From NCBI GenBank assembly GCA_021735645.1, contig JAIPGP010000037.1, positions 1-34,082 on the forward strand: a stretch of DNA of 34,082 bases, read 5' to 3'. Source of the stretch: Candidatus Cloacimonadota bacterium (lineage in GTDB: Bacteria; Cloacimonadota; Cloacimonadia; Cloacimonadales; TCS61). This document shows, one piece after another, positions 3,114 to 29,532 of the stretch. Position 1 is the stretch's first letter. Every line of letters begins with the position of its first letter. The notes beneath the pieces are model-generated. The model was not told the origin of the DNA. It worked only from the letters and a program-made list of their open reading frames with translations, and did not search any database. The position numbers and the translations under genes were made by a program.

Positions 3114-3122
3114 TTAATAAAT

Positions 3123-3161: not shown

Positions 3162-3167
3162 AGCATT

Positions 3168-3998: not shown

Positions 3999-4082
3999 TA
4001 AATAAGCTTTTACTTGACCTATTTTTAGCAATATACTCTTTTAAATTTGAGGAAAAGGGAAATTATAGAAGCTTAGGGGAAT

Positions 4083-4643
4083 ATGAAAGGAATAAAAGTA
4101 GTAATTGGTTTACTTTTTTTAATAGCAATAGGACCATACTATATATATTCTCAGGCAGATGAACAGGAGCTGAAATTAGTTTTTATCGAGCGATTTACTC
4201 AATTTATTGATTGGAATTCAAATCAGTTATCTGATATAGAGGATGTAAGCAAAGAGTTTGTTATAGGCACAACCGGAGATAGTGAGTACGCAGAAATTCT
4301 GCACAGTTTTTTTAGCGGGAGGAAATTGAAGGGAAAGCCGGTAAAAATAATAACAGCTCAAAATAAAGAAGACTATTTGAAATGTAACCTGCTTCATGTA
4401 TCGGATATGGATGATAAAAAACTGAATACATTAGTGGAGACGGTGTCACGATTACCAATTTTAACTATAAGTGATAGAGAAGAATACTCCGAATCTGGGA
4501 TACAGATCACCATTTGCCGACAGGGAGAGCATTTGGGGTTTTGCATCAATGAAACAGCTCTGGCAGGTTCTGGTTTAAAAGCAAATTATCTGTTACTGGA
4601 ATCCGCCAGGATCATAAATCCAGTCCTCAAGGAACGTCCGTGA
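4083..4643 (+). CDS. YfiR-like (DUF4154) exported regulatory protein
   Basis: The 186-residue product starts with a hydrophobic segment (about residues 4-19) that reads as a signal peptide or N-terminal anchor, so it should act in the periplasm. The rest resembles the YfiR/DUF4154 family. Visible are the aromatic segment VFIERFTQFIDW (33-44), GKPVKI (84-89), CNLLHVSDMDD (101-111), LPILTISD (124-131), GIQITICRQGEHLGFCIN (139-156) and a closing LLLESARII helix. Cysteines are at 101, 145 and 154. In Pseudomonas, YfiR binds and represses the periplasmic sensor of the diguanylate cyclase YfiN. Here the partner is probably the kinase encoded downstream, whose GTG start overlaps this stop codon. An AGGGGA ribosome binding site lies at 4075-4080. 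The family call rests on motif pattern, not a database search. Confidence 0.7.
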   Translation: MKGIKVVIGLLFLIAIGPYYIYSQADEQELKLVFIERFTQFIDWNSNQLSDIEDVSKEFVIGTTGDSEYAEILHSFFSGRKLKGKPVKIITAQNKEDYLKCNLLHVSDMDDKKLNTLVETVSRLPILTISDREEYSESGIQITICRQGEHLGFCINETALAGSGLKANYLLLESARIINPVLKERP

Positions 4644-11229: not shown

Positions 11230-11497
11230 CTATTTAAGCAGCAAAGCTTTACTTATATCTCGTCCTTCGGCTGAGATCATACGGAAATAATAGATTCCAC
11301 TAGGCTGGTAATTATTTTTTTCATCTCTTCCATCCCAGATAACTTTATGAATACCCTTCTGAAATTCAGCGTTAACCAGGTTTCTGATAAACTGCCCGCG
11401 GGAATTATAGACATCAATTCTAATCTGCTGATCAGCCCTTACGGCAAATTCCAGAGTTGTTACCGGATTGAATGGATTAGGATAATTTCCAATAATT
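11230..11497 (-). other. C-terminal sorting domain of the giant protein
   Basis: Residues from about 6012 to 6100 form a compact beta domain starting with IIGNYPNPFNPVTTLEF. It continues through RIDVYNSRGQFIRNL and KVIWDGRDEKN to SGIYYFRM and a basic end. This is the pattern of type IX secretion or FlgD-Ig-like sorting domains common in the FCB group. The second secreted protein of the window carries the same domain (YPNPFNPETTV). Secretion route is inferred from family knowledge. Confidence 0.85.
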
Positions 11498-14400
11498 TCT
11501 GTAACAGCAGGGAGTATCTCTGTGCCATCATTCTCAGATTCTTCCACATAGACCGTCCAGACAACATTGTAGCTGTAGCTGCCATCAGTTAAATGACAAC
11601 GGACAGTGAAGGTGCCGTGCTGCTCAAAGCTGTATGATAAGTCTGGAAGATCATCACCTGCGGTTTGAGAATTAACCGTCCAGGCAAAAACCGGATCACT
11701 GTCTATATCAGTGACTTCCAGATGGAAATCAATTGAAGAATGCTGTAAAATCTCAAGTTCTGTTTCGGCTGGTTCAAAGGATACTATTTCAGGAGGATCA
11801 TTTACCGGGTTTACAGTTACAATCATATCCTGCCTGTATATCTCCCGAGCAATTGCATCATCCACGAAGATAGAAACAATTTCGCTGCCGTTCCAGTTTT
11901 CAGTGGCACTAAAGAGAATCGTCATGCCAAATATCTGGGCATTTATTTCGGTGTTACCGGTGATAGTGCAGATAAGCTCGTCACCTTCAACATCAAAGGC
12001 ATATTCACTTACATCAAAAGCAAGAGAGCCATCCTCATTGAAGCTTACTTCGGCTGGTAAATTCAATTCGGGTAGATCATTCACTGAGGTCACTATCAGC
12101 ATAAAGCTGTCAACTATCTGAGCTCTGCCCTGATTATCGCTTACTGTGAGGGTTATAGTTGTTTCTCCGAACCAGTTAGCTACTGGTGAAATAGTAGCGA
12201 TAGAGCCAGTCAGATCTATTTGAATATCGGTTTCATTATAATCAACCTCATAGCTTAATATATCACCATCAACATCATTGTAGTAATCATTCAAGTCTAA
12301 AACTACTGGATCGAAATCCTCTTCGACAGTATATGGGTCAGGAATCTGAACTTCGATATATGGTGGATCATTTACAGGGGTAACTATAATATTCATATCG
12401 TCATTAGCATATCCGCCGTCAAGATCACTGATATTAACTGTGAGACTGCCAGTTCCATTCCAGTCAGGTTCAGCTGTAACTACTGCATTCAAGCCGGTTA
12501 TGGAAACTATTAAGCCATCTGTAGGCTCAATTGTCATCAGAAAATCATCGCTGTCTATATCAGTGAGATACAAAGCAAAATCAATGATCAAACTGCCATC
12601 TTCAGCAAAGGACAACTCTGCCGGCAATTCAAGTTGAGGTGGATCATTAATGGGATTTACTGTAACGATAATCATATCAGAAGTTGGTGGGAAAGCTACT
12701 CCATCTGTAATCCCCAGGGTGACGTTTTCATTGCCAAACCAGTTTTCAAGAGCAGAGAACGTAGCTGTAAGCCCGTCGAATTCAACATCAACGTTATTCG
12801 AATTGAGCAAGACAGCAGTTAGATCATCTCCATCCACATCGCTGGCATATAAACTAAGATCAAGTGCAGCACTAGTATCTTCATCAAAACTGAGAGTTGC
12901 GGGAAGATTGAGCACCGGTGCGTCATTTACTGCTGTAACGCTGATAAGAATATCATCTGAGACTATAACCCGATCATGACCATCATTAACAAAGAAAGTC
13001 ACCAGTTCCTGACCATTCCAGTCAGGGGCAGCAGAGATTTCTGCTATCATTGCTGTAATGGTAATATTGATATTCACATTTCCTGCTACTTCAAAAGTTA
13101 ATACATCCTGATCAATATCAAAAACATACTGCTGCAGATTAAGATATGAAGACCCATCTTCCTGGAAAGTCAATGTTTCCGGCAGATTAATTTCCGGGGG
13201 ATCATTTATGGTAACTACATTGAGAATAATATCACCGCTGACAGATGCTCTGGTGATGCCATCCTCAGCCACTACTGTAATTGCTGTAGTTCCATACCAG
13301 TTACTGATAGAATTGATTTCCAGTATTGAATCTGTGATTTGGACTGTCACTTCTTCTTCATTATATTCAATGCTGTATTCCAGGACATCATTATCATAAT
13401 CAGCAAAGAAATTATTCATATTCAGGCTAAAGCCTTCAAAATCCTCTTCAAGATCATAAACAGGTAATGATACTGCGATATATGGAACGTCATTGACCGG
13501 AACAACCATGACACTGATATTATGAGATACACTTGCCAGGTCAAAATCTATTGCTGTGAATTGCAGTACTTCTGTACCCGCCCAGTTTTCTGTAGCACTT
13601 AGATTTACTACAGAACCAGAAAATTCTACTATAACGTCCATATTCCCGGATACCTGATAAGTCAATTGATCGCCGTAAGGCAGATCAGGGTCAGCAAAGA
13701 CGGAACCAAGATTGAACTGATAGCCTGAATCTTCATCAAATTCTATCGTTGTAATGGGATCATCTACTATATACGGAGGATCATTCAAGCCTGTAACTGT
13801 CAGCATCGTTTGATCAGAAGCTATCAGTCTGCCTTCCTGATCATTTACCGTAAAGGTCACAAATTCTGAACCATTATAATTCTCAGGGGCAGATAATGTA
13901 ACAGTGAGACCTGCTATCTGAACATTGATATTCATTGTCTCCGAGGCTGTAAGCGTTAAATCATCCATATCAACATCAAAAATGTACTGCTCAAAATCTT
14001 CGATCAGTTCAGTTTCTTCAGCAAAGCTGAATTCGTCTGGCAGATTGATCTGAGGTACATCGTTTTCAGGTAATACAATAATATTTACAGCTGCAGTTGC
14101 AGGAGTGTTTCCGGGATCATCATAAGCAGAAATATTGAGCACAGCAGTACCATTCCAGTTTGCTACTGAGCTAATATAGACAACCTCACCTACCAGCACA
14201 GCTCCAATTTCTTCTACCTGATAATTTATCTGATAAATAAGCTCATTATTATCAATATCATTGAAATGACTGCTGAGATTCAAGCTGAAGGTTGTGAAAT
14301 CTTCCATTTTGGTTATATCATTAAAGGGCAGAACCATTTCCGGCAGATCATTCACAGCGATCACTGTCAGTGTAAATGTATCTGAGATATTCATGATACC

Positions 14401-17400
14401 ATCATTAGCTGTCACGCTGATCTGAGTAACACCATTCCAGTTCGGTTTAGGTGCCAGAGTCATAACGCCATTTAGTATAGCCAGGTTCACGTGAGTGTTT
14501 GCATATGAAGCAGTATAAGTAAGAGAATCAGTATCAATATCAGAGAAATGCAGTGCCAGATTTATTTCCAGCGGCTCAGCATCTTCCAGCATTTCCAGAT
14601 CGGCAAACGGCAGAATCAGAAGTGGATTATCATTCACCGCCACGACATTAACCGGAACAATCTCACTATCCATTCCGTCAAAGCCATCATTAACAATGAA
14701 TTCAATATTCTCAATCCCATTCCAGTTTGCATTAGCTGAAAGCGTTACCAGCAAACCATTTTCCACTTGAATGTTAATTTCGTCATTTCCAGAGTAAGTA
14801 ATGAATAATGAATCTCCGTCAGGATCAGATACATACTGCTCAAAATTGATTGTCAGTTCTGTATCCTCATTAAATATAAATCCACCATCTGGCAGATCGA
14901 TCTCAGGATACTGATTTGCCATTACATGAATAGGCAGCGGATCTTCCGGTGTTCCAATATCACCACCAGGGTTTGTCAAAGTGGTATAAACGCCGTCATA
15001 AATCCGGTTATTACCAGCATCCCAAACGCGAAATTCCACTTCTTCTATGATCTCACCCTGGATGTTCATTGATACATAAGCCAGATCATCACTCATAAAG
15101 ATATTTGCAGCACCTCTGCACTCATTATCTACAAAAGCTCCCACAACATCTTCCATATTTGCCTGCTGGCCGTTTATCATCACTGATCCATAGGCTACAG
15201 TGCTGTTTGTATATACCACAGGTAGCCAGTCTTCATTCAGATAGACTTCCACATTCCAGCTTTGAGTTAATTCAAACTCCTGATCTGAAACTGTCACTGA
15301 AATCTGCGTTGGCCATACTTCGTTAAAAGTATAACTCAAACTACTGGACATCTCAGATAACATCTCACCATTACTGTACCAGTTGTAAGTTATTTGAGAA
15401 TCAGGGTCATAAGCATCTACACTGAAATCTACTGTCTCTTCCCTGTATACACTGAGATTAGCATTTGCTGGAGTGTAATCATTGATCACAGGACCATCAT
15501 TGGATGGAGTTACTGTATAGACAAAGCTGTCTGATACCTGAAATTCTCCGTCTCCTGCCGTAACAGTGATTGTCCCTTGTCCAGACCAGTTTTCAGCAGA
15601 AGATATCGTCATTATTCCGTTCTCCAGAATTACAGTAAGCTGAGGTTGATTATTCGTATAGCTGTATTGCAATGTATCGGAATCAACATCGATAAAATAA
15701 TCTCCCAGATTGATCATGGTAGGTATATAATCCTCCATAACTACAATGTCTGCCAGTGGAGTGATCAAAAATGGTGAGTCGTTAATATTTGTGACGATTA
15801 TCTCTGTCTGATCACTGACAATTGCCCGAGCCTGATTATCACTTACAGAAAATGTTACTGTTTCTGTTCCATACCAGTCAGCAATTGCTGATAATGTTAC
15901 GATTTTTCCCGTTATCTGAGCATTGATATAATCATTGTCCTCTAATACAAGGGTTAGCAAATCACCATCAATATCTGATACATAGGGAGCAAAATTAACT
16001 GTTATGCTGCTATCTTCATTGAAATTGAAAGATTCCGGCAGATTAATCACTGGCAGGTCATTTACTGCTAAAACCTGAACCAGGAAAGATGCGCTGGTAA
16101 CTGCTCTGTTTACGTTATCATTCACATTAACTGAAATAGTAGTACTTCCATGCCAGTTTGCCAGAGAAGAAATAGTCATTATCCCCTCTGCAAGACTGGT
16201 TTGGATCTCATTATCATCAAAATCTACAGCAAATGTAAGTGGATCATTTTCCACATCGGCAAAATGTACATTCAGGTCTATCTCAAATTGGGCAAAATCC
16301 TCTTCCAGAATCAGAGTCTCAAAGGGGACGGTTAACAAAGGAGCATCATTGACAGGTGTAACTGATACGTTCATGATATCAAATGATACTGCTCCTCCAG
16401 AAACTGCATATACTGTGATGGGTTCTACCCCATTCCAGTTATCTATCGGATTGATAATTAAGGTTCTGCCGCTGATAGTAGCTCCTAATTCCGGGGCTGC
16501 TTCAAGATTCAATGTATATGAAGTACTTCCTGATACATATTGAGCCAGATTAATAATCCTGGAGCCATCCTCAATAAGTGTGATGGTCTCTGGAAGATCA
16601 ATCACTGGAGGATGGACTATTGTATTATTTGTAGAGAAATCGAGAGGTAGAAAATCTGGAGGATAGCCTAAATCATGTCCAGGATTGCTCATAACCAGGT
16701 AATCTGATACATATACGTCATCCAGATCACTGTCCCATAAAGCAAATTGGATTATTTCGCTTACTTCTCCCTGAATATTTAAAGTTGAATATGAGCTGCC
16801 ATCCAAAAATATGATCTCACCGGTACCCCGGCATTCTGTACCTGCAAATGCTGCTATTTCATCACCCTGGCTGGCTATGCCATCATTGATAGTAACCTCA
16901 CAGTAAGCAACCGTGCTATTAGGATAGATCACGACCTGCCATGGTCTGGGGAATTCGTTCGGCAATTCTTCACCTACGGAAATTGGCAGTAAATCTGGAG
17001 GATATCCCAAGTCTCCGCCAGGAATAGTAGTAGTATTATATTCAGCTACTAATACTACATCCAGACTAGCATCCCAAACTGCAAACTGCACAGGCTCAGG
17101 AATTTCACCCTGGATTGATATAGTAGATACTGACATATCATCTGAATAATTAATTTCTCCAATTCCACGGCATTCATATCCTACAAAGGCTGCCACTTCA
17201 TCATCCAGCGCTGCTCTATTGCCAAAAACTGTTACTTCGCAATAGGCTACTGTACTATTTGTATATATTATCACATTCCAGGGTCTGGGGAAATCTGTGG
17301 GCATTTCCTGACCAACATATATTGGCAGCAGGTCTGGAGGATAACCTATATCACCACCTGGGTTGCTGAACGTTGTGTAATCACTTACATATACCTGATC

Positions 17401-20400
17401 TGAGGAAGCATCCCATACAGCAAACTGAAGTAATTCTACTTCCACTCCCTGAACATTAATTGTTGAATAACTCATGCCTTCATCAAGCACAATGTTTCCC
17501 AGTCCTCTACACTCTGAAAGAACAAAAACTCCTACTTCATCTGAAGTTGACGCTGGAATTCCGTTCATAATCACCTGGCAATAAGCTACTGTGCTGTTTG
17601 GATAAATAACCAGATTCCAGGGTCTGGGGAAATCACTTTGCAATCCGCTGCCTACATAAACCGGCAGATAAGCTGGAGGATAACCTATATCATATCCAGG
17701 ATTGCTCATTGCGGTAAATTCACTAATCAGAACTTCATCAGCAGAAGCATCATAAACGGCAAAATTCACCAGTTCTGGCATTTCACCCTGAATGTTCATA
17801 GTAGCATAACTGGCTTCTCTTTCCATAAAGACTTCACCAACGCCACGGCATTCATAATTTACAAAAGCACCTACTTCATCGCCGGATGCAGCGTTTTCAC
17901 CGTCTATCATCACCTGGCAATAAGCTACAGTGGAATTTGTATAGATCACAGGTACCCACGGACGAGCATAATCTCCCTGTACTCCACCGACATAAACGGG
18001 CAGATAAGCTGGAGGATAACCTATATCATATCCAGGATTGCTCATTGCGGTAAATTCACTAATCAGAACTTCATCAGCAGATGCATCATAAACAGCAAAA
18101 TTTACCAGTTCAGGCATTTCACCCTGAATATTCATAGTAGCATAGCTGGCTTCTCTTTCCATAAAGACTTCACCTACGCCACGGCATTCATAGTTCACAA
18201 AAGCACCTACTTCATCGCCGGAAACAGCATTTTCACCGTCTATCATCACCTGGCAATAAGCTACTGTGGAATTTGTATAGATAACTGGTACCCACGGACG
18301 AGCATAATCTCCCTGTACTCCACCACCGACATAAACCGGCAGATAAGCTGGAGGATAACCTATATCATATCCCGGATTGCTCATTGCAGTAAATTCACTA
18401 ATCAGAACTTCATCAGCAGAAACATCATAGACAGCAAAATTTACCAGTTCAGGCATTTCACCCTGAATATTCATAGTAGCATAACTGGCTTCTCTTTCCA
18501 TAAAGACTTCACCAACGCCACGGCATTCATAATTCACAAAAGCACCTACTTCATCGCCGGAAACAGCATTTTCACCGTCTATCATCACCTGGCAATAAGC
18601 TACTGTGGAATTTGTATAGATAACTGGTACCCACGGACGGGCATAATCTCCCTGTACTCCACCGACATAAACCGGCAGATAAGCTGGAGGATAACCTATA
18701 TCATATCCCGGATTGCTCATTGCGGTAAATTCACTAATCAGAACTTCATCAGCAGAAGCATCATAAACGGCAAAATTTACCAGTTCCGGCATTTCACCCT
18801 GAATGTTCATAGTAGCATAGCTGGCTTCTCTTTCCATAAAGACTTCACCAACACCACGACATTCATAGTTCACAAAAGCTCCTACTTCATCACCGGATGC
18901 AGCATTTTCACCGTCTATCATCACCTGGCAATAAGCAACTGTGGAATTTGTATAGATAACTGGTACCCACGGACGGGCATAATCTCCCTGTACTCCACCG
19001 ACATAAACCGGCAGATAAGCTGGAGGATAACCTATATCATATCCCGGATTGCTCATCGCTGTAAATTCACTTATCAGTACTTCATCAGCAGAAGCATCAT
19101 AAACAGCAAAATTCACCAGTTCTGGCAATTCACCCTGAATGTTCATAGTAGCATAACTGGCTTCTCTTTCTATAAAGACTTCACCAACGCCACGGCATTC
19201 ATAGTTCACAAAAGCACCTACTTCATCTCCGGAAGCAGCGTTTTCACCGTCTATCATCACCTGGCAATAAGCTACAGTGGAATTTGTATAGATAACTGGT
19301 ACCCACGGACGGGCATAATCTCCCTGTACTACGCCACCGACATAAACCGGCAGATAAGCTGGAGGATAACCTATATCATATCCCGGATTGCTCATTGCGG
19401 TAAATTCACTAATCAGAACTTCATCAGCAGAAACATCATAGACAGCAAAATTCACCAGTTCAGGCATCTCACCCTGAATGTTCATAGTAGCATAGCTGGC
19501 TTCTCTTTCCATAAAGACTTCACCAACGCCACGGCATTCATAATTCACAAAAGCACCTACTTCATCACCCGCAACAGCGTTTTCACCGTCTATCATCACC
19601 TGGCAATATGCTACAGTGGAATTTGTATAGATCACAGGTACCCACGGACGGGCATAATCTCCCTGAACTCCACCACCGATATAAACCGGCAGATAGTTAG
19701 GAGGATAACCAATATCTCCACCCGGGTTGCTCATTGCGGTAAATTCACTTAGTAGTACTTCATCAGCAGATGCATCATAAACAGCATAATTCACCAGTTC
19801 CGGCATTTCACCCTGAATATTCATAGTAGCATAGCTGGCTTCTCTTTCCATAAAGACTTCACCAACGCCACGGCATTCATAATTCACAAAAGCACCTACT
19901 TCATCACCGGATGCAGCATTTTCACCGTCTATCATCACCTGGCAATAAGCTACAGTGGAATTTGTATAGATAACAGGTACCCACGGTCGGGCATAATCTC
20001 CCTGAACGCCACCACCGATATAAACCGGCAGATAGTTAGGAGGATAACCAATATCTCCACCTGGATTGCTCATTGCTGTAAACTCACTTAGCAGCACTTC
20101 ATCAGCAGAGGCATCATAAACAGCAAAATTCACCAGTTCCGGCATTTCACCCTGAATATTCATAGTTGCATAGCTGGCTTCTCTTTCCATAAAGACTTCA
20201 CCAACGCCACGGCATTCATAATTCACAAAAGCACCTACTTCATCGCCGGATGCAGCATTTTCACCGTCTATCATCACCTGGCAATAAGCAACTGTGGAAT
20301 TTGTATAGATCACAGGTACCCACGGACGGGCATAATCTCCCTGAACGCCGCCACCAATATGAACCGGCAGATAGTTAGGAGGATAACCAATATCTCCACC

Positions 20401-23400
20401 AGGATTGCTCATTGCGGTAAATTCACTTAGCAGTACTTCATCAGCAGAGGCATCATAAACAGCGAAATTCACCAGCTCTGATGCATTACCCTGAATGTTC
20501 ATCGTTGCATAGCTGTGATCACTATCAATAAATATTTCTCCAACACCACGGCATTCAAAATTCACAAAGGCACCTACTTCATCGCCTTCTGCAGCTACCT
20601 CATTCTCGATTAATATTTCACAGTAAGCTACAGTGGAATTTGTATAAATAACTGGTATCCACGGTCTGGAATAATCTTCTGGCAGGCTATATGTTACCTG
20701 CCAGCTTACAGATTCCGTATACTCTTCATCACTTATTTCTACACTAACAGAGTAAATTCCTGCCAGACTGAAATTAATAGCGAGTTCTGATGAGGGATTA
20801 TTCTGATCAATACCATTCAGGAACCATTGATATTCCAAATCACTATCAATATCAGAAGCGCTAACACTGAAACTGATCTCAGTCTCTACATCGATCACAA
20901 TGTCCTGATCTTCTGGTTCATATCCAATTATCACAGGCTCATCGTTTACTGGTGATACTATTACTTCCATATCATCCGTGGTTATCAGACGACCTTGATT
21001 ATCATCAACCACAAAAGTCATTAACTCACTGCCATTATAATTTTCTGCTGGAATAAAAGTTACTGCCAATTCATCGATCTCAACAGCTATTTCTACATTT
21101 CCACTCACTGATAAGGTAAGATCATCACCTTCAACATCTGATATATAATCAGATAGATCAATACTTGTGCTACTATCTTCATCAAGCAGAACACTTGCCG
21201 GCAAATCCATTACAGGAGCATCATTAACTGCTGCCACAATAACCTGTGTTGCCCCAAAAGCAGACTGACCACCTTGATTATCATCAGCTAAAAATGCTAT
21301 ATCTGTAGTACCACTCCAGTTTGCTAAAGGTGTCAAAGTTACCAGATAACCATCTACTTCGATCATTATATTATTGTTGGCAAACGGGATTGTTTCTACA
21401 ACATCTCCATCTGCATCATAGATATATTGACTGAAATCCCGGGTTTCTGGTATATCTTCCATCATGTTGATCACTACAGGTAAATTTATTTCAGGATCAT
21501 CATTAACTGCCAGAACCTGTATGATAACATCATCGCTGGCTATCGCTCTGCCCTGATTATCATCAATAGTAAATGTTACTACTTCACTGCCAAACCAATC
21601 CTCATTAGGAGTAAAGGTAACAATAAAGTCAATAATATCTATCTGAATATTTTCTGCCAATTCTGAACTTAAACTTAAGTTGTCAAAATCAACATCATTC
21701 ACAAAGATACCAAAATATGCCTCATAAACTTCATCTTCATTAAAACTGATCATCTCGGGAAGATCAATCTCAGGAGCATCATTATCGTTGATTATTGTCA
21801 GATAAAAACCTTCGCTATCTGTTAATCCATCTCCATCAGTGCATGTGATCACAACCAGTGAAGTACCAAAATAATCTAAGGATGGATTTACTTCCAGTTC
21901 CAGCGTTGTGTCAGTTATTTCTGCAAAACTCAGCATCTCATTAATATCAGGAATACTGACAATTGACCAGAGATCAAGGCTGGCATCTTCATCCGGATTA
22001 GTATAATTTATTGTAAGACTTCCACTTGTCTCTTCCATAGTTTCATAATCCGCAATCATTTCTATTTCCGGCGCTATGCTAACCGCTGCAATATGGATGC
22101 TTATTGTCCCGAATGCCTCGCCATCATCTCCCCAGACCCTGAATCCTATTTCATCTGTGATATCTTCATTCACTGTAGGTTGATAATTTCCCAGATAGGT
22201 CGTGAGAGGTTCGTTAAATTCAAAGAAACCAAAATTACTTAATACTCCATATTGGGGTTCGGTTGTAATTTCAATACTTAATTGTTCCATTGGCTCTGTA
22301 AGATCCAGACCATTGAAATCAATCTCCATATTCATATCGTAATCTAACCAGACATTTCCGTTTATTGCCATAGGTTCTACCCGTGTTGCGATTCCTTCAG
22401 AACCTTCCCTGTAAATCCTGATATTGTAAACTCTGGAAACATAACCTTGTGCATCACTTAGCGTGTAACAGATGAAATCTACATCTCTGCTCTCTGGCAT
22501 CTCATAATGCAGATTCCAGTCAGAAAGTGTATATTCGACATCAAAAACACTTAGAAGCTCGTCTCCACTACCTGTTATTATTGAATCAAAGGTAAGAAGT
22601 TCATTTGCTGTTTCCACATCAAAAATATCTTCTGTAAGATCATAATCCAGCGTGTTACCAGTGATCATGAATTCTCTATTCATACTTACTGGACGATCAT
22701 TTACAGGACTGACCATATAATTAAACACTGCCGGCACTGATGTACCGCCATCAGTATCATGTACTACTATTTCCACTTGATCAGTTCCAAAATAATTTAC
22801 TTCTGGCTCATAGATCAAATATTCATCTTCTATAGTTACGCTGCCATGCATTGCCGGATTTGTTATTTCAAAGGTGAGATCTGCATAAGTATCATTATCA
22901 TCAATCACCAGTAATTCTATACTTTTCGCTTGATCCTCCATTAATGTATAAGCTGTAGAATTATTGATTACTACAGGAGGAGTATTAACTGGTATTACCT
23001 GCATATAAACAGCCGATACTGTAAATAATCCAGCTGGATCTGCTGCTCTGAACCTTCCAATAGCACGTCCTGTGAATCCTGCAGCAGGAGTTAAGGTTAA
23101 TTCGCTTCCGGATAATTCGTATGACATGTGATAGATATAGTTATTTTCCAGTGAATATGATAACACATCTCCATCAGAATCATTAAAATAATCATTTAGA
23201 TCAATCGTCACTGCCTGATTAATTCCCGTCTCAAGATCGATTGTATATTCTCCAGTCGGAGCATCATTTACCGGATTAACAGTTACAGGAACTTCCACAT
23301 CAACCTCTCCCCCGGCATTATCATTCAAGTTCACCCAAAGTGTGGTTGTGCCATTCCAGTTTTCCGAAGAACTTCTCAATCTATAAATATTACTTGCCAA

Positions 23401-26400
23401 TAAGGTCAAATTAAGCTCATCTCCAACGCTCAATTCTGCACTCACCTGCTCATTATCAACATCTCCAGTAGTTATTGTAAAAATACTTGATTGGTCTTCA
23501 TTGAATGTGATTGCAAGTGGAGAAACCAGGAACGGCAGATCATTAACCGGATTTACCTGGAATATTACTGTGTCCTCGGCGATTGCTCTATCCTGATTAT
23601 CGCTGACTGTAAATGTTACCGAAGCCTGTCCGTTCCAGTTTGCCTGAGGTGTCACTATCACTGATAAACCTGTTATTGATATATCCAGGAAACCACTATA
23701 ATCAGTGCTTAGAGTAATTTCATCTTCATCCACGTCGGTGATATATTCACTGAAATCAACTGTCAGTTCTGTATCTTCATCCAGTTCAATTACAGCGGGT
23801 AAATCTATCACCGGATTATGGTTGTTTATTACTTCAATCACTAAAAGATCAGGTGGATAACCAATGTCACCACCAGGATTGCTCATAGCTGTAAATTCAC
23901 TCACCAGCACTTCATCGGCTGATGCATTATAGATAGCAAAATTTATCAGCTCAGGGGTATTACCCTGGATATTCATTGTTGCATAGCTATGTTCACCATC
24001 GATAAATACATCTCCAACTCCACGGCATTCATAATTAACAAAGGCTCCCACTTCATCATCATCATCTGCTGCCGTGCCATTGATCATCACTTCACAATAA
24101 GCCACTGTGGAATTTGTATAGATCACAGGTACCCAGGGTCGTGCATAATCTCCCGGGGGTACTTCACCTATATATACCGGCAGATAATCAGGAGGATAAC
24201 CAATATCTCCACCCGGATTACTCATTACGGTAAATTCACTTAACAGAACCTCATCGGCTGAGGCATCATATATAGCAAAATTTACCAACTCTGCTGCAAT
24301 ACCCTGAATGTTCATAGTCGCAAAACTGCCTTCTCTTTCAATAAATATTTCTCCAACTCCGCGGCATTCGAGATTTACAAATGCTCCCACTTCATCACCT
24401 ACTGCTGCTGCTGCTCCATTGATCATAACTTCGCAATATGCCACAGTAGAATTTGTATAAATAACAGGTACCCAGGGACGGGCATAATCTACATGTGGTA
24501 TTTCTCCAATATAAACCGGCAGATAATCTGGTGGATAACCAATATCTCCTCCAGGATTACTCATCACTGTAAATTCACTGACCAATACTTCATCTGCTGA
24601 TGCATCATATATGGCAAAATTTACTATTTCCGGTGCATTACCCTGAATGTTCATTGTTGCATAACTATACTCACCATCAAAAAATACTTCTCCGACTCCC
24701 CGGCATTCATAATTTACAAATGCTCCCACTTCATCATCTATTGCTGCCGCTTCTCCATCGATCAGCACTTCACAATAGGCTACAGTGGAATTTGTGTAAA
24801 TAACCGGCACCCAGGGACGATTATAATTCTCAGGCGAGGCTATTGTTACCTGCCAGACTACAAATAAGCTATTATCACCGTCACTTACATCTACTCGAAC
24901 TATAAATACTCCAGGTTCGTCAAAGATCATTGTAAGATTATCTTCAGGGTTATTCTGATCAATATCATCAATAAGCCATTGATACTCTAATTCACTGTCA
25001 ATATCGGTAGCGGTAACATTGAATGTGATCTCGTCATTCAGTTCCCCGGAAATATTCTGCTCAGATGGTTCAAATGACTCGATAACAGGTGCATCATTTA
25101 CTGCTGTAATATCTAAAGTTACTGTATCTGATGCCATCAATCTTCCCTGGTTATCATCAACTGAAAATGTCAGCATTTCAGTACCATAATAATTCTCACT
25201 AGGTGTGAAGGTAACTTCCAGATCGTCAATGTCTACCTGTACTTCTACATTCCCGGTTACGGAAAGTGTTAAATTATCACTTTCAAGATCAGAAACATAA
25301 GCACTAAAATCTATCATCTCACTGCTATCTTCTGCAATTTCTATAACATCTGGCAATTCTATCACTGGCGCATCATTCACTTCAATCACGGTTACTTCCG
25401 TTGCACCAAAGCCTGAGTCTCCACCCATATTATCAGTCACTAGAAATCCCAGATCAGTGATCCCAGACCAGTTTGCGACCGGTGTGAGAGTTACATCATA
25501 TCCTTCAATGGAGATCATAATAAATGGATCAGCAAAAGGTATTATTTCCAATACATCTCCATCAATATCAGTTAGATAAGGTGTAAAATCAATTACTTCA
25601 GGAACGTCTTCCATAAGAGTAATCGAAGCTGGTAGGTCAATCTGGGGATCATCATTTACTGGTGTTACAATGATATTTACATCATCACTGGCAATAGCTC
25701 TTCCCTGATTGTCATTTACTGTAAAGGTAACCATTTCCTCACCATTCCAGTCCGCATCGGGTGTAATATTAACCAGAATCTGGGTGATCTCAATTGATAA
25801 ATGTCCTGCTATAGATACCGATAAACTCAAACTATCAGGATCGATGTCAATTATATAACCCAAGAAAGATTCCTGCAATTGACTATCTTCTGCCAGACTA
25901 AATTCATCTGGTAAATTTATTTCCGGAGCATCATTATCATTTATTACTGTTAAAATGAAACCCTGGCTGTCACTTAAACCGTTTCCATCCGTACAAGTCA
26001 ACTCCACAAATGATGTGCCAAAGTAATCAGCCTCAGGATTTACTACTACTTCAAGAGTAGTATCAGTCAATTCCCCGAAACTAAACATTGAATTAACATC
26101 CGGGAGGCTGCTGATTGACCAGAAATCAAGATTCATTGCCTCATCAGGATTTGTGTAGTTTATAATAAAAGAATCACTAGTATCTTCCAGCAGTTCAAAA
26201 TCACTTATTTCTTCTATCTCAGGTGCTATATCGCCTGCCGTGATATTGATCGTGATTGTTCCAAAATCTTCTCCATCATTGCCAAAAACTCTGAAATTTA
26301 TTATCTCTGTGACATCTTCATTTACTGTAGGAGTATAACTTCCCAGATAGGTTGTTAAGGGCTCATTATATTCCAGAAAGGCAAAATCATCCAGTACGCC

Positions 26401-29400
26401 GTATTGAAGATCGGATGTGATCTCAATCCCTAGCTGTTCATATGGTTCGGTAATATCAATTCCTGAAAAATCAACATCTGTTGATCCTCCATAATTAAGA
26501 TTAAATTCTCCATCTATTGCTAATGGTGCAAATCTTAATCCGGTATTTTCATTACCTGCTCTATAGACCCAGACGACTTCCGGAGTACTCGCCTCATTTT
26601 CTTCATCTAATATTCTAAATAAAATAATGTCAGAAATCCTATTTTCTGGCATTATATATGTTATCGTTGTTCCAGACACAGTATATGGTATGCCACTGAC
26701 AGCTACATAGTCATCTCCCGAGGTGTGAACAGGATAAAATACAAGGTCTTCGGTAGGAGTTTCCTCATCACTGATATTCCCCGAAAAGTCGTATTCCAAT
26801 ATATCTGAATCTATCCATATATTTACGACTGGCTCAACTTCAGGTGCATCATTTACTGAATGTATATAAATATCGCAATTTACGGTATCAGAAACAGCAC
26901 CTTCTTCATCAATAGCAACCACTGCAAAGTTATCTGTTCCCTCATAATTTTCCTCTATTAGATAAGATATTCTTCTATTGTTAATAAATTCAAATATGCC
27001 ATGCTGAGGCTGAATTACTATTTCAAATTCCATATCAGCAATTGAAGTATAGTCATCAACTGCATAAAGCTGAATTGCTTCCGGAGTATCTTCCTGGACA
27101 TCTACAATGTTATTGGTATTGATAAAAGCAGTTGGTGGCTCGTTTACTTCTCTAACTGATAATATTATACCTTTGGTTAAACTTAATCCACCTGGATCTT
27201 CTATATTTAAAATAATACATTGGTGATAAGAACTGGCTTCCAAAGGTATTATTTCTATAATACTACCACTCAATTCAACTTCTAGATGCTCATATTGCGA
27301 GGTTATATTATAAGTTAATTCATCTCCATCAGGATCTGTAAAATAATCATCTAGATCTAGGCTGACATACTCATTCACGTTTAGATTTAGTAAGACATGG
27401 TTACCCTGGGGTGCATGATTAACATGTAAAACAGTCACAGAAATATCGGCTTCCGTGATCCCACCATCGCTGTCAGTCAGCACAACTGTCAGGTTATCTT
27501 CTCCATACCAGTTAGCCATATTCGTTAAAGAATATACTCCAGCAGGCATTAAATTGATATTAAAATTATTCCCTCCAGTCACTGAAATTCCTATCTCGCT
27601 GCTTTCAACATCACCAGCTTCGACCTGGAAATAATAATTCGAATTCTCATTGAATTGAATAGTCAAAGGTGAGATCAAATATGGAAGATCATTTACACTG
27701 AATACGACAATGTTTACACTGTCCTCAGCTATCAGTCTACCACTATCGTCACTTACTCTGAATATCACTAACTCATCACCAAACCAGTTTGCGTCTGGAG
27801 TAATTGTTACATTAAATCCATCGACAGCAACATCCAGATTACCTTCATGATCGCAGGTTAATGTCAGTTCATCTTCATCAGGATCACTAACATAATAACT
27901 GAAATCAAATACTTCGGCAGTATCTTCCTGCAAGGATATTTCCTGGGGTAGTTCAATCATCGGAGGATGATTTGTCAATATCTCTACTGGCAGCAAATCT
28001 GGCGGATAGCCAATATCTCCTCCTGGATTGCTCAACACAGTAAAATCACTCACATAGACTATGTCGGCTGAAGCATCATATACTGTAAAAGTTATCATTT
28101 CTAGTGTCTCGCCCTGTATATTCATGGTTGATACAGTAATATCGTTATTAACTACAATATTTCCAACTCCTCGACATTCATCTCCCACAAAAGCTCCTAC
28201 TTCATCATCATCTGCTGCTGCTGCTCCATCTATGGTCACTTCGCAATAGGCAACTGTGGAATTTGTGTAATTGACAACTTCCCAGGGACGAGGATACAAT
28301 CCGGGATCTTCCATTATTTCTACTGTCCATAACTGAGAAATACTGAATTCTTCATCACTTACTACAGCTTCTACAGTGTAACTGCCAACTTCGGTAAATT
28401 CATAATATAGTTCCATTCCAGTACCTGTTTCAATTTCATTTACCAGCCATTGATATGATATCTCACTATCTATATCCTCTCCCTCAATTGAAAAATCTAC
28501 ACTGCCTGATTCCACAAATTCGATTTCCGTAGTTTCAGGCAAATAACCAACAATTACAGGAGCATCATTTACTGCTGTCACCACTACTTCAACAACTGCC
28601 ATTGACATTTCTCTATATACTCCGTCATCGGCAAAAAAAGTTACATTTTCAATACCAGACCAGTCCGGTGTGCTGCTGAATGTGGCTATTCCATCAAGAA
28701 CATCGATACAGATATTATCTCCTGTTGCCAGAATGTTCAAATCATCACCATCCACATCCCAGATCATGTCTGTGATATCAAGCTCATAACCTTCATCTTC
28801 ATTGAAACTCAGTCCCACTGGTAAATTAAACTCAGGAGCATCATTCACAGGTAAGATAACTATTTCCACATCAGCTTCGGCTTCACCACTCACCTGATCA
28901 TCAACTGCAAAGGTTAATGTTTCAGTTCCATTCCAGTTTGCATCCGGTGTAATACTCACCAGCATCCCGGTGATTTCCACTGTAAGATGCTCACTGTTCT
29001 CACAAGATAAGATCAAATCATCTTCTTCATCAGGATCATTTATATAACTGCTGAAATCCTCTAAGATACTCTGATCTTCATTGCCTGAAAACTCTTCCGG
29101 TAAAACTATTTCCGGTAAATGATTAAATGAATATATGGCACTTAAACCAAATGGATCATCAACTCCACCCACCGTTGTATTATTCACAAATGGAATACTC
29201 TCCTGGCAATCTATAACTATATCTGAATTTGCCAGATATACCTTAAAACTTAAGTCCTCTCCAGCAGTTACTGTGGATACAGCTGTCATGTTCCAGACAT
29301 TTGGTCCCGGAACAAATCCTGCTAATGCCCGGCAATCGTCCTCTCCTCCCGGTCCAAACGCCGCCAGCATGTTACTTCCTTCATCTGTGAAATTTTCGCC

Positions 29401-29532
29401 ATTAACTGTTACGGTATTAAATATTACCATATTGTATTCGGTGCCGCTGATAGGTTCCCACTCTGGTACTTCACCAGATAACAAACCACTTAAAAAAAAT
29501 AATCCCAAAAATACTACTAGTATTCGCTTCAT
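11230..29532 (-). CDS. Giant secreted repeat protein: cadherin-like and PKD-like domains, GDEVGAF modules, C-terminal sorting domain
   Basis: This 6100-residue protein has a signal peptide (about 1-20, MKRILVVFLGLFFLSG) and a GAGGAGC ribosome binding site at 29537-29543. Residues 21-135 are a divergent module. The body holds about 37 cadherin-like domains of roughly 90 residues, each with an LPE..F.ED opening, a DxDGDxLTL calcium-type motif, a NWxG segment and a closing VNDAP linker. Five PKD-like domains occur, and 17 clear modules of about 112 residues carry RPW, TNSTVAYC, GDEVGAFV, ECRG, MNIQG and NPGGDIGYPP motifs. Module runs lie at about 410-520 (one), 1568-1902 (three), 2949-4300 (twelve) and 4765-4870 (one). 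The C-terminal 90 residues carry NYPNPFNP and end in SKALLLK, a type IX-like sorting domain. It is probably a surface adhesin or stalk-like protein. The ligand and the module's function are not recognised. There is no frameshift or stop throughout. Confidence 0.93.
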   Translation of the reverse strand: MKRILVVFLGLFFLSGLLSGEVPEWEPISGTEYNMVIFNTVTVNGENFTDEGSNMLAAFGPGGEDDCRALAGFVPGPNVWNMTAVSTVTAGEDLSFKVYLANSDIVIDCQESIPFVNNTTVGGVDDPFGLSAIYSFNHLPEIVLPEEFSGNEDQSILEDFSSYINDPDEEDDLILSCENSEHLTVEITGMLVSITPDANWNGTETLTFAVDDQVSGEAEADVEIVILPVNDAPEFNLPVGLSFNEDEGYELDITDMIWDVDGDDLNILATGDNICIDVLDGIATFSSTPDWSGIENVTFFADDGVYREMSMAVVEVVVTAVNDAPVIVGYLPETTEIEFVESGSVDFSIEGEDIDSEISYQWLVNEIETGTGMELYYEFTEVGSYTVEAVVSDEEFSISQLWTVEIMEDPGLYPRPWEVVNYTNSTVAYCEVTIDGAAAADDDEVGAFVGDECRGVGNIVVNNDITVSTMNIQGETLEMITFTVYDASADIVYVSDFTVLSNPGGDIGYPPDLLPVEILTNHPPMIELPQEISLQEDTAEVFDFSYYVSDPDEDELTLTCDHEGNLDVAVDGFNVTITPDANWFGDELVIFRVSDDSGRLIAEDSVNIVVFSVNDLPYLISPLTIQFNENSNYYFQVEAGDVESSEIGISVTGGNNFNINLMPAGVYSLTNMANWYGEDNLTVVLTDSDGGITEADISVTVLHVNHAPQGNHVLLNLNVNEYVSLDLDDYFTDPDGDELTYNITSQYEHLEVELSGSIIEIIPLEASSYHQCIILNIEDPGGLSLTKGIILSVREVNEPPTAFINTNNIVDVQEDTPEAIQLYAVDDYTSIADMEFEIVIQPQHGIFEFINNRRISYLIEENYEGTDNFAVVAIDEEGAVSDTVNCDIYIHSVNDAPEVEPVVNIWIDSDILEYDFSGNISDEETPTEDLVFYPVHTSGDDYVAVSGIPYTVSGTTITYIMPENRISDIILFRILDEENEASTPEVVWVYRAGNENTGLRFAPLAIDGEFNLNYGGSTDVDFSGIDITEPYEQLGIEITSDLQYGVLDDFAFLEYNEPLTTYLGSYTPTVNEDVTEIINFRVFGNDGEDFGTITINITAGDIAPEIEEISDFELLEDTSDSFIINYTNPDEAMNLDFWSISSLPDVNSMFSFGELTDTTLEVVVNPEADYFGTSFVELTCTDGNGLSDSQGFILTVINDNDAPEINLPDEFSLAEDSQLQESFLGYIIDIDPDSLSLSVSIAGHLSIEITQILVNITPDADWNGEEMVTFTVNDNQGRAIASDDVNIIVTPVNDDPQIDLPASITLMEDVPEVIDFTPYLTDIDGDVLEIIPFADPFIMISIEGYDVTLTPVANWSGITDLGFLVTDNMGGDSGFGATEVTVIEVNDAPVIELPDVIEIAEDSSEMIDFSAYVSDLESDNLTLSVTGNVEVQVDIDDLEVTFTPSENYYGTEMLTFSVDDNQGRLMASDTVTLDITAVNDAPVIESFEPSEQNISGELNDEITFNVTATDIDSELEYQWLIDDIDQNNPEDNLTMIFDEPGVFIVRVDVSDGDNSLFVVWQVTIASPENYNRPWVPVIYTNSTVAYCEVLIDGEAAAIDDEVGAFVNYECRGVGEVFFDGEYSYATMNIQGNAPEIVNFAIYDASADEVLVSEFTVMSNPGGDIGYPPDYLPVYIGEIPHVDYARPWVPVIYTNSTVAYCEVMINGAAAAVGDEVGAFVNLECRGVGEIFIEREGSFATMNIQGIAAELVNFAIYDASADEVLLSEFTVMSNPGGDIGYPPDYLPVYIGEVPPGDYARPWVPVIYTNSTVAYCEVMINGTAADDDDEVGAFVNYECRGVGDVFIDGEHSYATMNIQGNTPELINFAIYNASADEVLVSEFTAMSNPGGDIGYPPDLLVIEVINNHNPVIDLPAVIELDEDTELTVDFSEYITDVDEDEITLSTDYSGFLDISITGLSVIVTPQANWNGQASVTFTVSDNQDRAIAEDTVIFQVNPVNDLPFLVSPLAITFNEDQSSIFTITTGDVDNEQVSAELSVGDELNLTLLASNIYRLRSSSENWNGTTTLWVNLNDNAGGEVDVEVPVTVNPVNDAPTGEYTIDLETGINQAVTIDLNDYFNDSDGDVLSYSLENNYIYHMSYELSGSELTLTPAAGFTGRAIGRFRAADPAGLFTVSAVYMQVIPVNTPPVVINNSTAYTLMEDQAKSIELLVIDDNDTYADLTFEITNPAMHGSVTIEDEYLIYEPEVNYFGTDQVEIVVHDTDGGTSVPAVFNYMVSPVNDRPVSMNREFMITGNTLDYDLTEDIFDVETANELLTFDSIITGSGDELLSVFDVEYTLSDWNLHYEMPESRDVDFICYTLSDAQGYVSRVYNIRIYREGSEGIATRVEPMAINGNVWLDYDMNMEIDFNGLDLTEPMEQLSIEITTEPQYGVLSNFGFFEFNEPLTTYLGNYQPTVNEDITDEIGFRVWGDDGEAFGTISIHIAAVSIAPEIEMIADYETMEETSGSLTINYTNPDEDASLDLWSIVSIPDINEMLSFAEITDTTLELEVNPSLDYFGTSLVVITCTDGDGLTDSEGFYLTIINDNDAPEIDLPEMISFNEDEVYEAYFGIFVNDVDFDNLSLSSELAENIQIDIIDFIVTFTPNEDWFGSEVVTFTIDDNQGRAIASDDVIIQVLAVNDDPEINLPVVINMMEDIPETRDFSQYIYDADGDVVETIPFANNNIMIEVDGYLVTLTPLANWSGTTDIAFLADDNQGGQSAFGATQVIVAAVNDAPVMDLPASVLLDEDSSTSIDLSDYISDVEGDDLTLSVSGNVEIAVEIDELAVTFIPAENYNGSELMTFVVDDNQGRLITTDDMEVIVSPVNDEPVIIGYEPEDQDIVIDVETEISFSVSASDIDSDLEYQWFLNGIDQNNPSSELAINFSLAGIYSVSVEISDEEYTESVSWQVTYSLPEDYSRPWIPVIYTNSTVAYCEILIENEVAAEGDEVGAFVNFECRGVGEIFIDSDHSYATMNIQGNASELVNFAVYDASADEVLLSEFTAMSNPGGDIGYPPNYLPVHIGGGVQGDYARPWVPVIYTNSTVAYCQVMIDGENAASGDEVGAFVNYECRGVGEVFMEREASYATMNIQGEMPELVNFAVYDASADEVLLSEFTAMSNPGGDIGYPPNYLPVYIGGGVQGDYARPWVPVIYTNSTVAYCQVMIDGENAASGDEVGAFVNYECRGVGEVFMEREASYATMNIQGEMPELVNYAVYDASADEVLLSEFTAMSNPGGDIGYPPNYLPVYIGGGVQGDYARPWVPVIYTNSTVAYCQVMIDGENAVAGDEVGAFVNYECRGVGEVFMEREASYATMNIQGEMPELVNFAVYDVSADEVLISEFTAMSNPGYDIGYPPAYLPVYVGGVVQGDYARPWVPVIYTNSTVAYCQVMIDGENAASGDEVGAFVNYECRGVGEVFIEREASYATMNIQGELPELVNFAVYDASADEVLISEFTAMSNPGYDIGYPPAYLPVYVGGVQGDYARPWVPVIYTNSTVAYCQVMIDGENAASGDEVGAFVNYECRGVGEVFMEREASYATMNIQGEMPELVNFAVYDASADEVLISEFTAMSNPGYDIGYPPAYLPVYVGGVQGDYARPWVPVIYTNSTVAYCQVMIDGENAVSGDEVGAFVNYECRGVGEVFMEREASYATMNIQGEMPELVNFAVYDVSADEVLISEFTAMSNPGYDIGYPPAYLPVYVGGGVQGDYARPWVPVIYTNSTVAYCQVMIDGENAVSGDEVGAFVNYECRGVGEVFMEREASYATMNIQGEMPELVNFAVYDASADEVLISEFTAMSNPGYDIGYPPAYLPVYVGGVQGDYARPWVPVIYTNSTVAYCQVMIDGENAASGDEVGAFVNYECRGVGEVFMEREASYATMNIQGEMPELVNFAVYDASADEVLISEFTAMSNPGYDIGYPPAYLPVYVGSGLQSDFPRPWNLVIYPNSTVAYCQVIMNGIPASTSDEVGVFVLSECRGLGNIVLDEGMSYSTINVQGVEVELLQFAVWDASSDQVYVSDYTTFSNPGGDIGYPPDLLPIYVGQEMPTDFPRPWNVIIYTNSTVAYCEVTVFGNRAALDDEVAAFVGYECRGIGEINYSDDMSVSTISIQGEIPEPVQFAVWDASLDVVLVAEYNTTTIPGGDLGYPPDLLPISVGEELPNEFPRPWQVVIYPNSTVAYCEVTINDGIASQGDEIAAFAGTECRGTGEIIFLDGSSYSTLNIQGEVSEIIQFALWDSDLDDVYVSDYLVMSNPGHDLGYPPDFLPLDFSTNNTIVHPPVIDLPETITLIEDGSRIINLAQYVSGSTSYTLNLEAAPELGATISGRTLIINPIDNWNGVEPITVYAVSGGAVSFDIMNVSVTPVNDAPLLTVPFETLILEEDFAQFEIDLNVHFADVENDPLTFAVDFDDNEIQTSLAEGIMTISSLANWHGSTTISVNVNDNVNRAVTSASFLVQVLAVNDLPVINLPESFNFNEDSSITVNFAPYVSDIDGDLLTLVLEDNDYINAQITGKIVTLSAIADWYGTETVTFSVSDNQARAIVSDQTEIIVTNINDSPFLITPLADIVVMEDYIPTMINLGDYFIDVDSDTLQYSYTNNQPQLTVILENGIMTISSAENWSGQGTITVTAGDGEFQVSDSFVYTVTPSNDGPVINDYTPANANLSVYREETVDFSVDAYDPDSQITYNWYSNGEMLSEMSSSLSYTFNEVWPTQISVTVSDQEFELTQSWNVEVYLNEDWLPVVYTNSTVAYGSVMINGQQANMEDVVGAFVDNECRGAANIFMSDDLAYVSMNIQGEIIEEVEFRVWDAGNNRIYDGVYTTLTNPGGDIGTPEDPLPIHVMANQYPEIDLPDGGFIFNEDTELTINFEQYVSDPDGDSLFITYSGNDEINIQVENGLLVTLSANANWNGIENIEFIVNDGFDGMDSEIVPVNVVAVNDNPLLILPFADLEMLEDAEPLEINLALHFSDIDTDSLTYTASYANTHVNLAILNGVMTLAPKPNWNGVTQISVTANDGIMNISDTFTLTVIAVNDLPEMVLPFNDITKMEDFTTFSLNLSSHFNDIDNNELIYQINYQVEEIGAVLVGEVVYISSVANWNGTAVLNISAYDDPGNTPATAAVNIIVLPENDVPQINLPDEFSFAEETELIEDFEQYIFDVDMDDLTLTASETMNINVQIAGLTVTLSAPENYNGSEFVTFTVNDQEGRLIASDQTMLTVTGLNDPPYIVDDPITTIEFDEDSGYQFNLGSVFADPDLPYGDQLTYQVSGNMDVIVEFSGSVVNLSATENWAGTEVLQFTAIDFDLASVSHNISVMVVPVNDVPYIAVSLPVYDLEEDFEGFSLNMNNFFADYDNDVLEYSIEYNEEEVTVQITDSILEINSISNWYGTTAITVVAEDGITRASVSGDIILNVVTINDPPEINLPETLTFQEDGSSYLNLQQYVFDIDQDVLTFEVAGNVNINITITAMIAEISAAPDWNGQELVTFFVNDGHDRVIVSDDILISVTAVNDAPVLNLPATLSFDEDTSAALDLSLYASDVDGDDLTAVLLNSNNVDVEFDGLTATFSALENWFGNENVTLGITDGVAFPPTSDMIIVTVNPINDPPQLELPAELSFAEDGSLIIDFALYLTDIDSDDFLMTIEPTDGLIVSITGLNAVVTAEPDWNGTGSLTVNISDLDGGYANDDMNIIVTPVNDPPYIEVQIPDPYTVEEDFDPVVLDLNDYYNDVDGDILSYEVDYNETDIQIDLTGSIATISPVANWFGETTITLTVSDNQGRAQIVDSFMLIVTSVNDLPELNLPAEVSFNEDGSLAFDVSEYAFDVEGDELICTITGNTEINAQIFGMTILFSATENWNGSEIVSIFVDDAIAREIYRQDMIVTVNPVNDPPEIVSFEPAETELEILQHSSIDFHLEVTDIDSDPVFAWTVNSQTAGDDLPDLSYSFEQHGTFTVRCHLTDGSYSYNVVWTVYVEESENDGTEILPAVTEIIGNYPNPFNPVTTLEFAVRADQQIRIDVYNSRGQFIRNLVNAEFQKGIHKVIWDGRDEKNNYQPSGIYYFRMISAEGRDISKALLLK
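14926..15240 (-). repeat. Isolated C-terminal GDEVGAF module lacking one cysteine
   Basis: One module near residues 4765-4870 has VYTNSTVAYGSV, with glycine where the other copies have cysteine. It also has DVVGAFVDNECRG, MNIQGE and NPGGDIGTPEDPLP. It follows a PKD-like domain, as every other module run does. Sequence is clearly diverged from the tandem copies. Confidence 0.85.
16631..20690 (-). repeat. Tandem array of twelve GDEVGAF/ECRG modules
   Basis: Residues about 2949-4300 hold twelve consecutive modules of 111-114 residues. The first (SRPWIPV, ENEVAAEGDEVGAF) and the last three (FPRPW start; NGIPASTSDEVG, FGNRAALDDEVA and NDGIASQGDEIA variants) are diverged. The eight between are almost identical. 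Each has one cysteine in VAYC and one in ECRG about 25 residues later, a possible disulfide pair. The cadherin-like domains around them are nearly free of cysteine. Confidence 0.93.
17640..20335 (-). repeat. Eight nearly identical 336/339-bp direct DNA repeats
   Basis: A marker phrase (CAGATAAGCT or CAGATAGTTA on the plus strand) recurs at 17665, 18001, 18340, 18676, 19012, 19351, 19690, 20029 and, in the more diverged first module, 20368. Spacings are exactly 336 or 339 bases. The three-base difference is one extra Gly or Val codon in the GGVQGD linker. Copies agree at most synonymous sites. Copies ending at 17665-19351 share NPGYDIGYPPAYLPVYVG, whereas those at 19690-20368 share NPGGDIGYPPNYLPV. 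Confidence 0.95.
20690..23827 (-). repeat. Superblock B: second copy of a duplicated run of about 1045 residues
   Basis: Residues about 1903-2948 comprise ten cadherin-like or related domains and one PKD-like domain, in the same order as superblock A at 24833-27973 and nearly the same length (3138 versus 3141 bases). Matching landmarks include an unusual domain with FNEPLTTYLG then PTVNEDITDEIGFRV, a following TINYTNPDED domain with CTDGDGLTDSEGF, and the PKD-like segment with EYQWFLNGIDQNNP. Confidence 0.9.
23828..24832 (-). repeat. Three tandem GDEVGAF/ECRG modules
   Basis: Residues about 1568-1902 contain three modules in series, each starting with NRPW or ARPW followed by VPVIYTNSTVAYCEV. 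They carry AAIDDEVGAF, AAVGDEVGAF and ADDDDEVGAF variants and end in NPGGDIGYPPD. They link superblocks A and B and are more diverged from each other than the eight central copies. Confidence 0.92.
24833..27973 (-). repeat. Superblock A: first copy of a duplicated run of about 1045 residues
   Basis: Residues about 521-1567 contain ten cadherin-like or related domains ending in a PKD-like domain, collinear with superblock B. Landmarks are YNEPLTTYLGSYTPTVNEDV, INYTNPDEAMNLDFWSI, CTDGNGLSDSQGF and LEYQWLIDDIDQNNP. The four or five middle domains depart from the standard cadherin-like pattern, and the departures are shared by both copies. Confidence 0.9.
27974..28305 (-). repeat. Single GDEVGAF/ECRG module before superblock A
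   Basis: Residues about 410-520 contain PRPWEVVNYTNSTVAYCEV, AADDDEVGAFVGDECRG and NPGGDIGYPPDLLPV. It follows the first PKD-like domain (EISYQWLVNE) and precedes superblock A, so module plus superblock forms the repeated super-unit. Confidence 0.9.

Follow-up and report, generated by a model that had tools for sequence, protein, structure and literature searches.

The window analysed here, 34,082 nucleotides long and an entire contig of a Cloacimonadota MAG (3.77 Mb, 151 contigs), carries a gene for a putatively exported repeat protein of 6100 residues (11230..29532, reverse strand), and raises the question of how so long a protein is built, by which events it came to its length, and what its repeats may do. 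The open reading frame starts with ATG and has no internal stop, in agreement with the initial annotation, which had described it as uninterrupted. The host, a bacterium from anoxic water, belongs to the genus containing Candidatus Stygibacter, which NCBI places in Cloacimonadota. All genomes compared are MAGs: the window's own (G000); G088, from the same genus; Candidatus Stygibacter frigidus (G089, loci L073 and L074; 67% complete), listed in that genus; and Tobar13.5m-G51 (G083, loci L069 and L070), a Candidatus Cloacimonadota of another genus.

The gene lies between two neighbours that recur in relatives. On the same strand, upstream, domain matches and synteny identify a protein of 1117 residues with a T9SS type A sorting domain, Dockerin_1 and a MAM-like domain (29820..33173); such a dockerin/T9SS-tail protein directly adjoins the giant also in G083 and S. 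frigidus (L074, L061), and a homologue lies upstream of the giant's N-terminal fragment in G088 (L076). On the opposite strand, a convergent gene of the receiver/PAS/histidine-kinase type (7707..11111, forward) has counterparts that are likewise convergent in L074 and L062, the type being judged by eye from the translations in each case. A promoter scan upstream of the giant gene gave nothing exceeding chance. Antisense to the module array runs an open frame of 704 residues (17638-19752, forward), which probably exists only because the repeat period is 339 bases (3 x 113).

Domain architecture of the giant protein

Some 60 small domains, repeated at nested levels, make up the protein and are arranged as five cassettes; in each, one or more modules are followed by a run of cadherin-like units closed by a single PKD-type unit, with the following module run, or the tail, directly behind it (all coordinates on the reverse strand). 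After a putative signal peptide of about residues 1-22 (MKRILVVFLGLFFLSGLLSGEV; 29467..29532), read from the sequence itself, the first cassette comprises the divergent module M0 (residues 23-132; 29137..29466) and, by unit profile, two cadherin-like units with their PKD-type unit (residues 136-408; 28309..29127). The second has module M1 (residues 415-520; 27973..28290) and superblock A (residues 521-1566; 24835..27972), in which four cadherin-like units, a stretch that we call X/Y (residues 891-1099), four further cadherin-like units and a PKD unit follow one another; the third has modules M2-M4 (residues 1572-1903; 23824..24819) and superblock B, of the same layout (residues 1904-2950; 20683..23823). 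The fourth combines an array of twelve modules, M5-M16 (residues 2956-4301; 16630..20667), with four cadherin-like units and PKD (residues 4305-4765; 15238..16620), and the fifth module M17 (residues 4768-4871; 14920..15231) with eleven cadherin-like units and PKD (residues 4872-5998; 11539..14919). A probable C-terminal sorting tail of T9SS type, or FlgD_ig domain, completes the chain (residues 6012-6100; 11233..11499).

The module runs of 1, 3, 12 and 1 proposed in the initial annotation are borne out by the module starts (residue 415; 1572, 1685 and 1798; twelve from 2956 to 4196; about 4768), and Tandem Repeats Finder places a 339-base repeat in two arrays, at 17654-20677 and 23848-24819. 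Within the long array M6-M13 are near-identical in protein sequence and M14-M16 divergent. The annotation did miss the eighteenth module, M0, found directly behind the signal peptide by profiles built without any M0 sequence (E 7e-8 to 1e-10; none of 20 shuffles with E<1), and although the levels of nesting that it named hold, it overlooked that of the five cassettes.

A unit profile search finds 38 cadherin-like or PKD-type units. Three pieces of the protein score 280, 166 and 342 bits against NF012211 (cut-off 90) and 206, 127 and 228 bits against Big_9 (cut-off 23.6); with these multiple matches over curated cut-offs, the giant is a tandem-95 / cadherin-like repeat protein. The Pfam PKD model exceeds its cut-off only at residues 1479-1555, the remaining four PKD-type units being assigned by their position and a shared W-x-V ending. 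The units, of about 93 residues, thus belong by curated models with those of the tandem-95 / Big_9 / Cadherin_5 giants (NF012211, PF17963, PF17892), from which the protein differs in the regular interleaving with an unnamed module and in the one PKD unit that ends every run. The 22 DxDxD motifs counted in the sequence would fit Ca2+ binding. A Pfam search of the whole protein finds no cohesin and no known adhesive family, only stalk domains.

The module, of about 106 residues, is covered by no Pfam or NCBIfam model, and its profile matches no PDB sequence. AlphaFold2 predicts an all-beta domain of seven strands (mean pLDDT 95), for which no PDB fold match reaches E<=0.001; a CBM20-like module was considered, CBM20 being the best PDB fold match, and set aside as weak (E 0.028, TM 0.43). 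When PKD and two modules are predicted together, from an alignment of four rows, the PKD unit is modelled well and the modules reach a pLDDT of about 30. The fold also occurs in an uncharacterised protein of an uncultured marine virus (BFVD A0A0F7L4H0; TM 0.72, E 4.7e-5); a phage origin of the module was rejected, as phage records give no match. Stabilisation by a disulfide is likewise rejected as a general trait: of 44 aligned modules, 43 retain the second cysteine but only 26 the first.

Of 125 Cloacimonadota genomes, 61 contain the module. In G000 it occurs in about 70 copies, spread over the giant gene and about ten other, mostly giant, open reading frames; those on C98, C101, C36 and C147 (L063-L067), of 2052 to 5164 residues, hold many modules each, the giant on C98 also having Cohesin and that on C36 Dockerin and a LamG-like domain. 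A frame of 3988 residues from another family (L096, G060:C21:1-15164), with masked N stretches inside, shows weak module matches in alternation with pairs of cadherin-like units, the pattern recurring about every 311 residues. Because modules and cadherin-like units alternate there as well, the cassette principle seems to predate the giant gene.

Superblock duplication and turnover or conversion in the module array

The spacing of the modules agrees with the initial annotation's proposal of a duplicated super-unit of one module plus about 1045 residues: M1 and M2 lie 1157 residues (3471 bases) apart and M2 and M5 1384 residues (4152 bases), and the difference of 681 bases is close to two 339-base modules. 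As a refutation of that proposal the annotation had named superblocks aligning no better to each other than to other domain runs; in pairwise alignment of the blocks (a BLASTP self-comparison gave only the trivial match), A (residues 521-1571) and B (1904-2955) are nearly gapless, with 503 identities in 1042 aligned columns (about 48-48.7%; 48.7% for the superblocks as delimited above), and score 2520; no other pairing that involves A or B scores above 926, and shuffled sequences do not exceed 133. Their descent from one duplicated segment is supported by this comparison. The duplication is old; dS between the two superblocks of G000 exceeds 2. The X/Y stretch at 22084-22704 has its second copy at 26236-26823; two copies are found in each of G000, G088 and G083, none in S. 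frigidus, and a single, distant one in G060 (L096).

The same layout recurs in relatives, whose comparison the annotation had suggested for counting modules and superblocks. In G088 the runs are 1, 3 and at least 8, the contig ending inside the array; in G083, where the locus has a neighbour of 1131 residues upstream and receiver/histidine-kinase genes downstream, M0 precedes runs of 1 and 3, after which two contigs hold between them at least 3 plus 8 whole modules, and M17 comes last. Since the 1-3-N-1 layout is common to another genus, the long form is, as read from the order of domains, older than the split of the genera.

Between G000 and G088 the superblocks are 69% (A-A) and 85% (B-B) identical. 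A and B of G083, at 69%, resemble each other more closely than they do the superblocks of G000 (50-54%); superblock windows favour within-genome pairing in 14 of 16 cases, and the tree is nearly a three-way star. Either of two events in the lineage of G083 would explain this pattern, a separate duplication or conversion between its two superblocks. We consider it unlikely that the superblock was duplicated independently in the two genera, as the 1-3-N-1 order, lengths equal to within a few residues and the positional orthology of M1, M15, M16 and M17 would all need to have arisen twice, whereas conversion accounts for the pattern with one duplication. The modules before the superblocks in G083, M1 and M4, are mutual closest relatives (86% amino-acid identity; clade support 99/89), and a duplicated unit of one module plus about 1045 residues thus fits; in G000 M4 is nearer to M2 (81%) than to M1 (65%), so that the module part there no longer shows the unit.

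The long array has a different history from the modules around it. M6-M13 of G000 have a mean identity of 96% in protein and 93% in nucleotides, and their DNA is 0.90-0.97 identical within the genome, against 0.73-0.80 to the core copies of G088; M2-M5 have a DNA identity of 0.83-0.89 between these two genomes. A tree built from 46 modules joins M1, M15 and M16 each to the module at the same position in other genomes, and sets M17 together with its counterpart apart from the rest of the full modules; M6-M13 of G000 all fall into a single clade, and most core copies of G088 and G083 cluster with others from their own genome. Because core copies are alike within a genome and flanking modules alike across genomes, tree and identities indicate that the central array undergoes turnover or conversion genome by genome, its flanks remaining fixed.

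This homogeneity does not reflect fresh amplification. The longest exact repeat within the 12-module array measures 119 nucleotides, and only two reach 100; core module pairs differ at a mean of 0.245 of synonymous sites (pS) and 0.020 of nonsynonymous ones (pN). With such short exact repeats and about 24% synonymous divergence the array is thus not a run of identical copies; and since the protein is 96% identical all the same, the substitution pattern points to core copies that are old and under purifying selection. The copy number given here is that of the assembly, the contigs of two relatives (G088, G083) breaking inside the array.

Contraction in Candidatus Stygibacter frigidus

In S. frigidus the locus L074 holds a homologue of the 1117-residue neighbour (65% identical, cut by the contig end), the convergent receiver/histidine-kinase gene and, complete between them, an orthologue of the giant of only 1277 residues (L074:2684-6517). 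Aligning it with the 6100 residues requires, besides one small indel, only a gap of 4165 residues and another of 660. The first absent stretch covers residues 229-4393 (16354..28848, reverse strand), with the joint at VNDAP, and the second residues 5060-5719 (12376..14355, reverse strand), with the joint at VND[L/P]P; both joints, 229/4394 and 5060/5720, fall exactly where one unit meets the next, at the VND[A/P]P linker. As the retained parts are nearer to G000 (65-74% identical) than to G083 (53-56%), the loss is placed inside the genus; the short form most likely arose there by deletion from a long one, and the alignment documents a domain-precise contraction in a relative. The 15-nucleotide motifs at the two joints, compared in G000, share 14 and 11 bases, and the loss probably went by way of the linkers, through recombination or microhomology-mediated deletion.

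It is very improbable that the repeats, or the short form, stem from misjoined short reads. All sequences are contigs of MAGs, the array interrupts those of G088 and G083, and S. frigidus is known here from one MAG; but the array offers few long exact repeats to an assembler and shows synonymous divergence throughout, the 1-3-N-1 layout was recovered from independent genomes, the similar DNA at the S. frigidus joints is limited to the short motifs just described, and the X/Y block is not found elsewhere in the S. frigidus MAG. Length at this locus changes by exchange of whole domains. Of the history proposed in the initial annotation, segmental duplication thus stands, but the recent one-way growth that it implies with local amplification does not, the long form being old, its array homogenised, and the difference between 6100 and 1277 residues a contraction.

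Export, composition and possible function

The tail scores 34 bits against FlgD_ig, over the cut-off of 27, and 21.3 bits against Por_Secre_tail, below the cut-off of 27; NCBIfam TIGR04183 makes no call on it, and a profile of 30 sorting tails from the same genome matches it at E 1.9e-24. That genome encodes components of T9SS machinery (SprA_N at E 3e-25; four matches to the PorV family that exceed the cut-off; 44 to Peptidase_C25, the gingipain family), and sorting tails are matched in it at least 150 times; a T9SS has been described as possibly present in Cloacimonadota (PMC11285876). Given signal peptide, sorting tail and T9SS genes, the label of surface protein is plausible. An RTX or type I secreted giant adhesin was rejected, the whole genome having no match to PF00353, for which two control genomes are positive.

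We regard it as moderately probable that the protein is a giant exported filament of the T9SS type, a rod with repeated beads, whose length is set by in-register recombination of domains. Signal peptide and sorting tail would direct it through Sec and then the T9SS across the outer membrane. The rod would be formed by about 40 cadherin-like/tandem-95 and PKD units, probably stiffened by Ca2+, and the 18 all-beta modules, known here only from this phylum, would serve in their five runs as repeated beads for binding or self-association. In-register recombination between domains would set length and bead number; an old duplication of the unit of module plus about 1045 residues would have been followed by continuing turnover or conversion of the array, and now and then whole blocks would be cut out at VND[A/P]P linkers. 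Points against this reading are the sub-threshold Por_Secre_tail score of the tail, the weakness of the module's PDB fold matches, and a search of the giant that turned up no domain binding a ligand of known specificity.

Alternatively, the modules may be pure spacers in a stalk of the Periscope type (SasG, Rib, Sgo_0707; PMC8201768), their number setting the distance of M0 from the cell and their similarity serving recombination; this is possible, but we think it somewhat unlikely. The giant shares with Periscope Proteins tandem near-identical folded domains and length variation by gain or loss of repeats: it has both tandem similar domains (96% in protein, pLDDT 95) and a repeat number that differs between relatives, which, with the large length variation at one locus, matches the published definition, and its distal N-terminal M0 is distinct in sequence. 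It differs from them in its several nested levels with two unrelated repeat families, in a T9SS-type rather than an LPxTG tail, in module identity kept by purifying selection despite the synonymous divergence, and in length variation seen between species rather than strains. Against pure spacers speak the five places in which the module runs sit, parted by long unrelated rod sections; the excess of pS over pN in the core, by which the protein sequence is kept and not DNA similarity alone; and M0 itself, which is a relative of the modules and not a different adhesin domain. A further parallel lies in fibrillar adhesins (PMC8286594), likewise single chains with multidomain stalks and with Big_9 listed as a stalk domain; unlike in these, the search found no known adhesive domain in the giant, and the repeated module is the only candidate.

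It is doubtful that the giant is a scaffold resembling that of a cellulosome, with the module as a non-cohesin docking site for dockerin proteins such as the 1117-residue neighbour. That protein, with its Dockerin_1 and sorting tail, does adjoin the giant in G083 and S. frigidus and has its homologue upstream in G088, and Cohesin and Dockerin occur in the module-bearing giants of C98 and C36. A cellulosome-like complex has moreover been proposed for Ca. Stygibacter (PMC8542988), and the scaffoldin of that complex (3,755 residues), from the same genus, is similarly large, repetitive and exported, with a C-terminal sorting domain. But the giant has neither cohesin nor CBM domain, none of the module's top 50 fold matches bears the name of a cohesin, and adjacency of a neighbour is not interaction. 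The cell-envelope section of that paper does not describe the giant.

The composition of the protein is unusual: it has 12 lysines in 6100 residues, five of them within the last 42, whereas lysine makes up 5.7-8.3% of the proteins encoded upstream in the window, mostly intracellular as judged by their translations. Sorting-tail proteins of G000 have a median of about 2.1% lysine in the C-terminal parts examined, and module proteins of other families mostly 0.9-2.4%, the giant's group being the most extreme at 0-0.3%. Sorting-tail proteins of G000 are generally low in both K and R (loci L001-L050). C25 candidates number 41-50 in G000, G088 and G083 against 3-24 in the rest of the phylum; a link between low lysine and C25 abundance is offered only as a hypothesis, both extremes coming from a single clade, and adaptation to saline water would explain the low lysine just as simply. 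As a long shot, the module could be an undescribed binding domain and exchangeable bead; by recombining in domain register at the VND[A/P]P linkers, Cloacimonadota would tune valency and reach of their surface rods, whose near-lysine-free composition would shield them from the unusually many C25 peptidases of the cell itself.

The locus provides a pair of forms, of 6100 and 1277 residues, with domain-exact joints, and a second genus with the long form. Growth, homogenisation and shrinkage of a giant bacterial protein, which is plausibly located at the surface, can thus be read from sequence, where they are usually inferred from single genes. They involve a module family without a matching model in Pfam or NCBIfam; roughly half of the Cloacimonadota genomes searched contain it, and in the Stygibacter group it has expanded within giant exported proteins.
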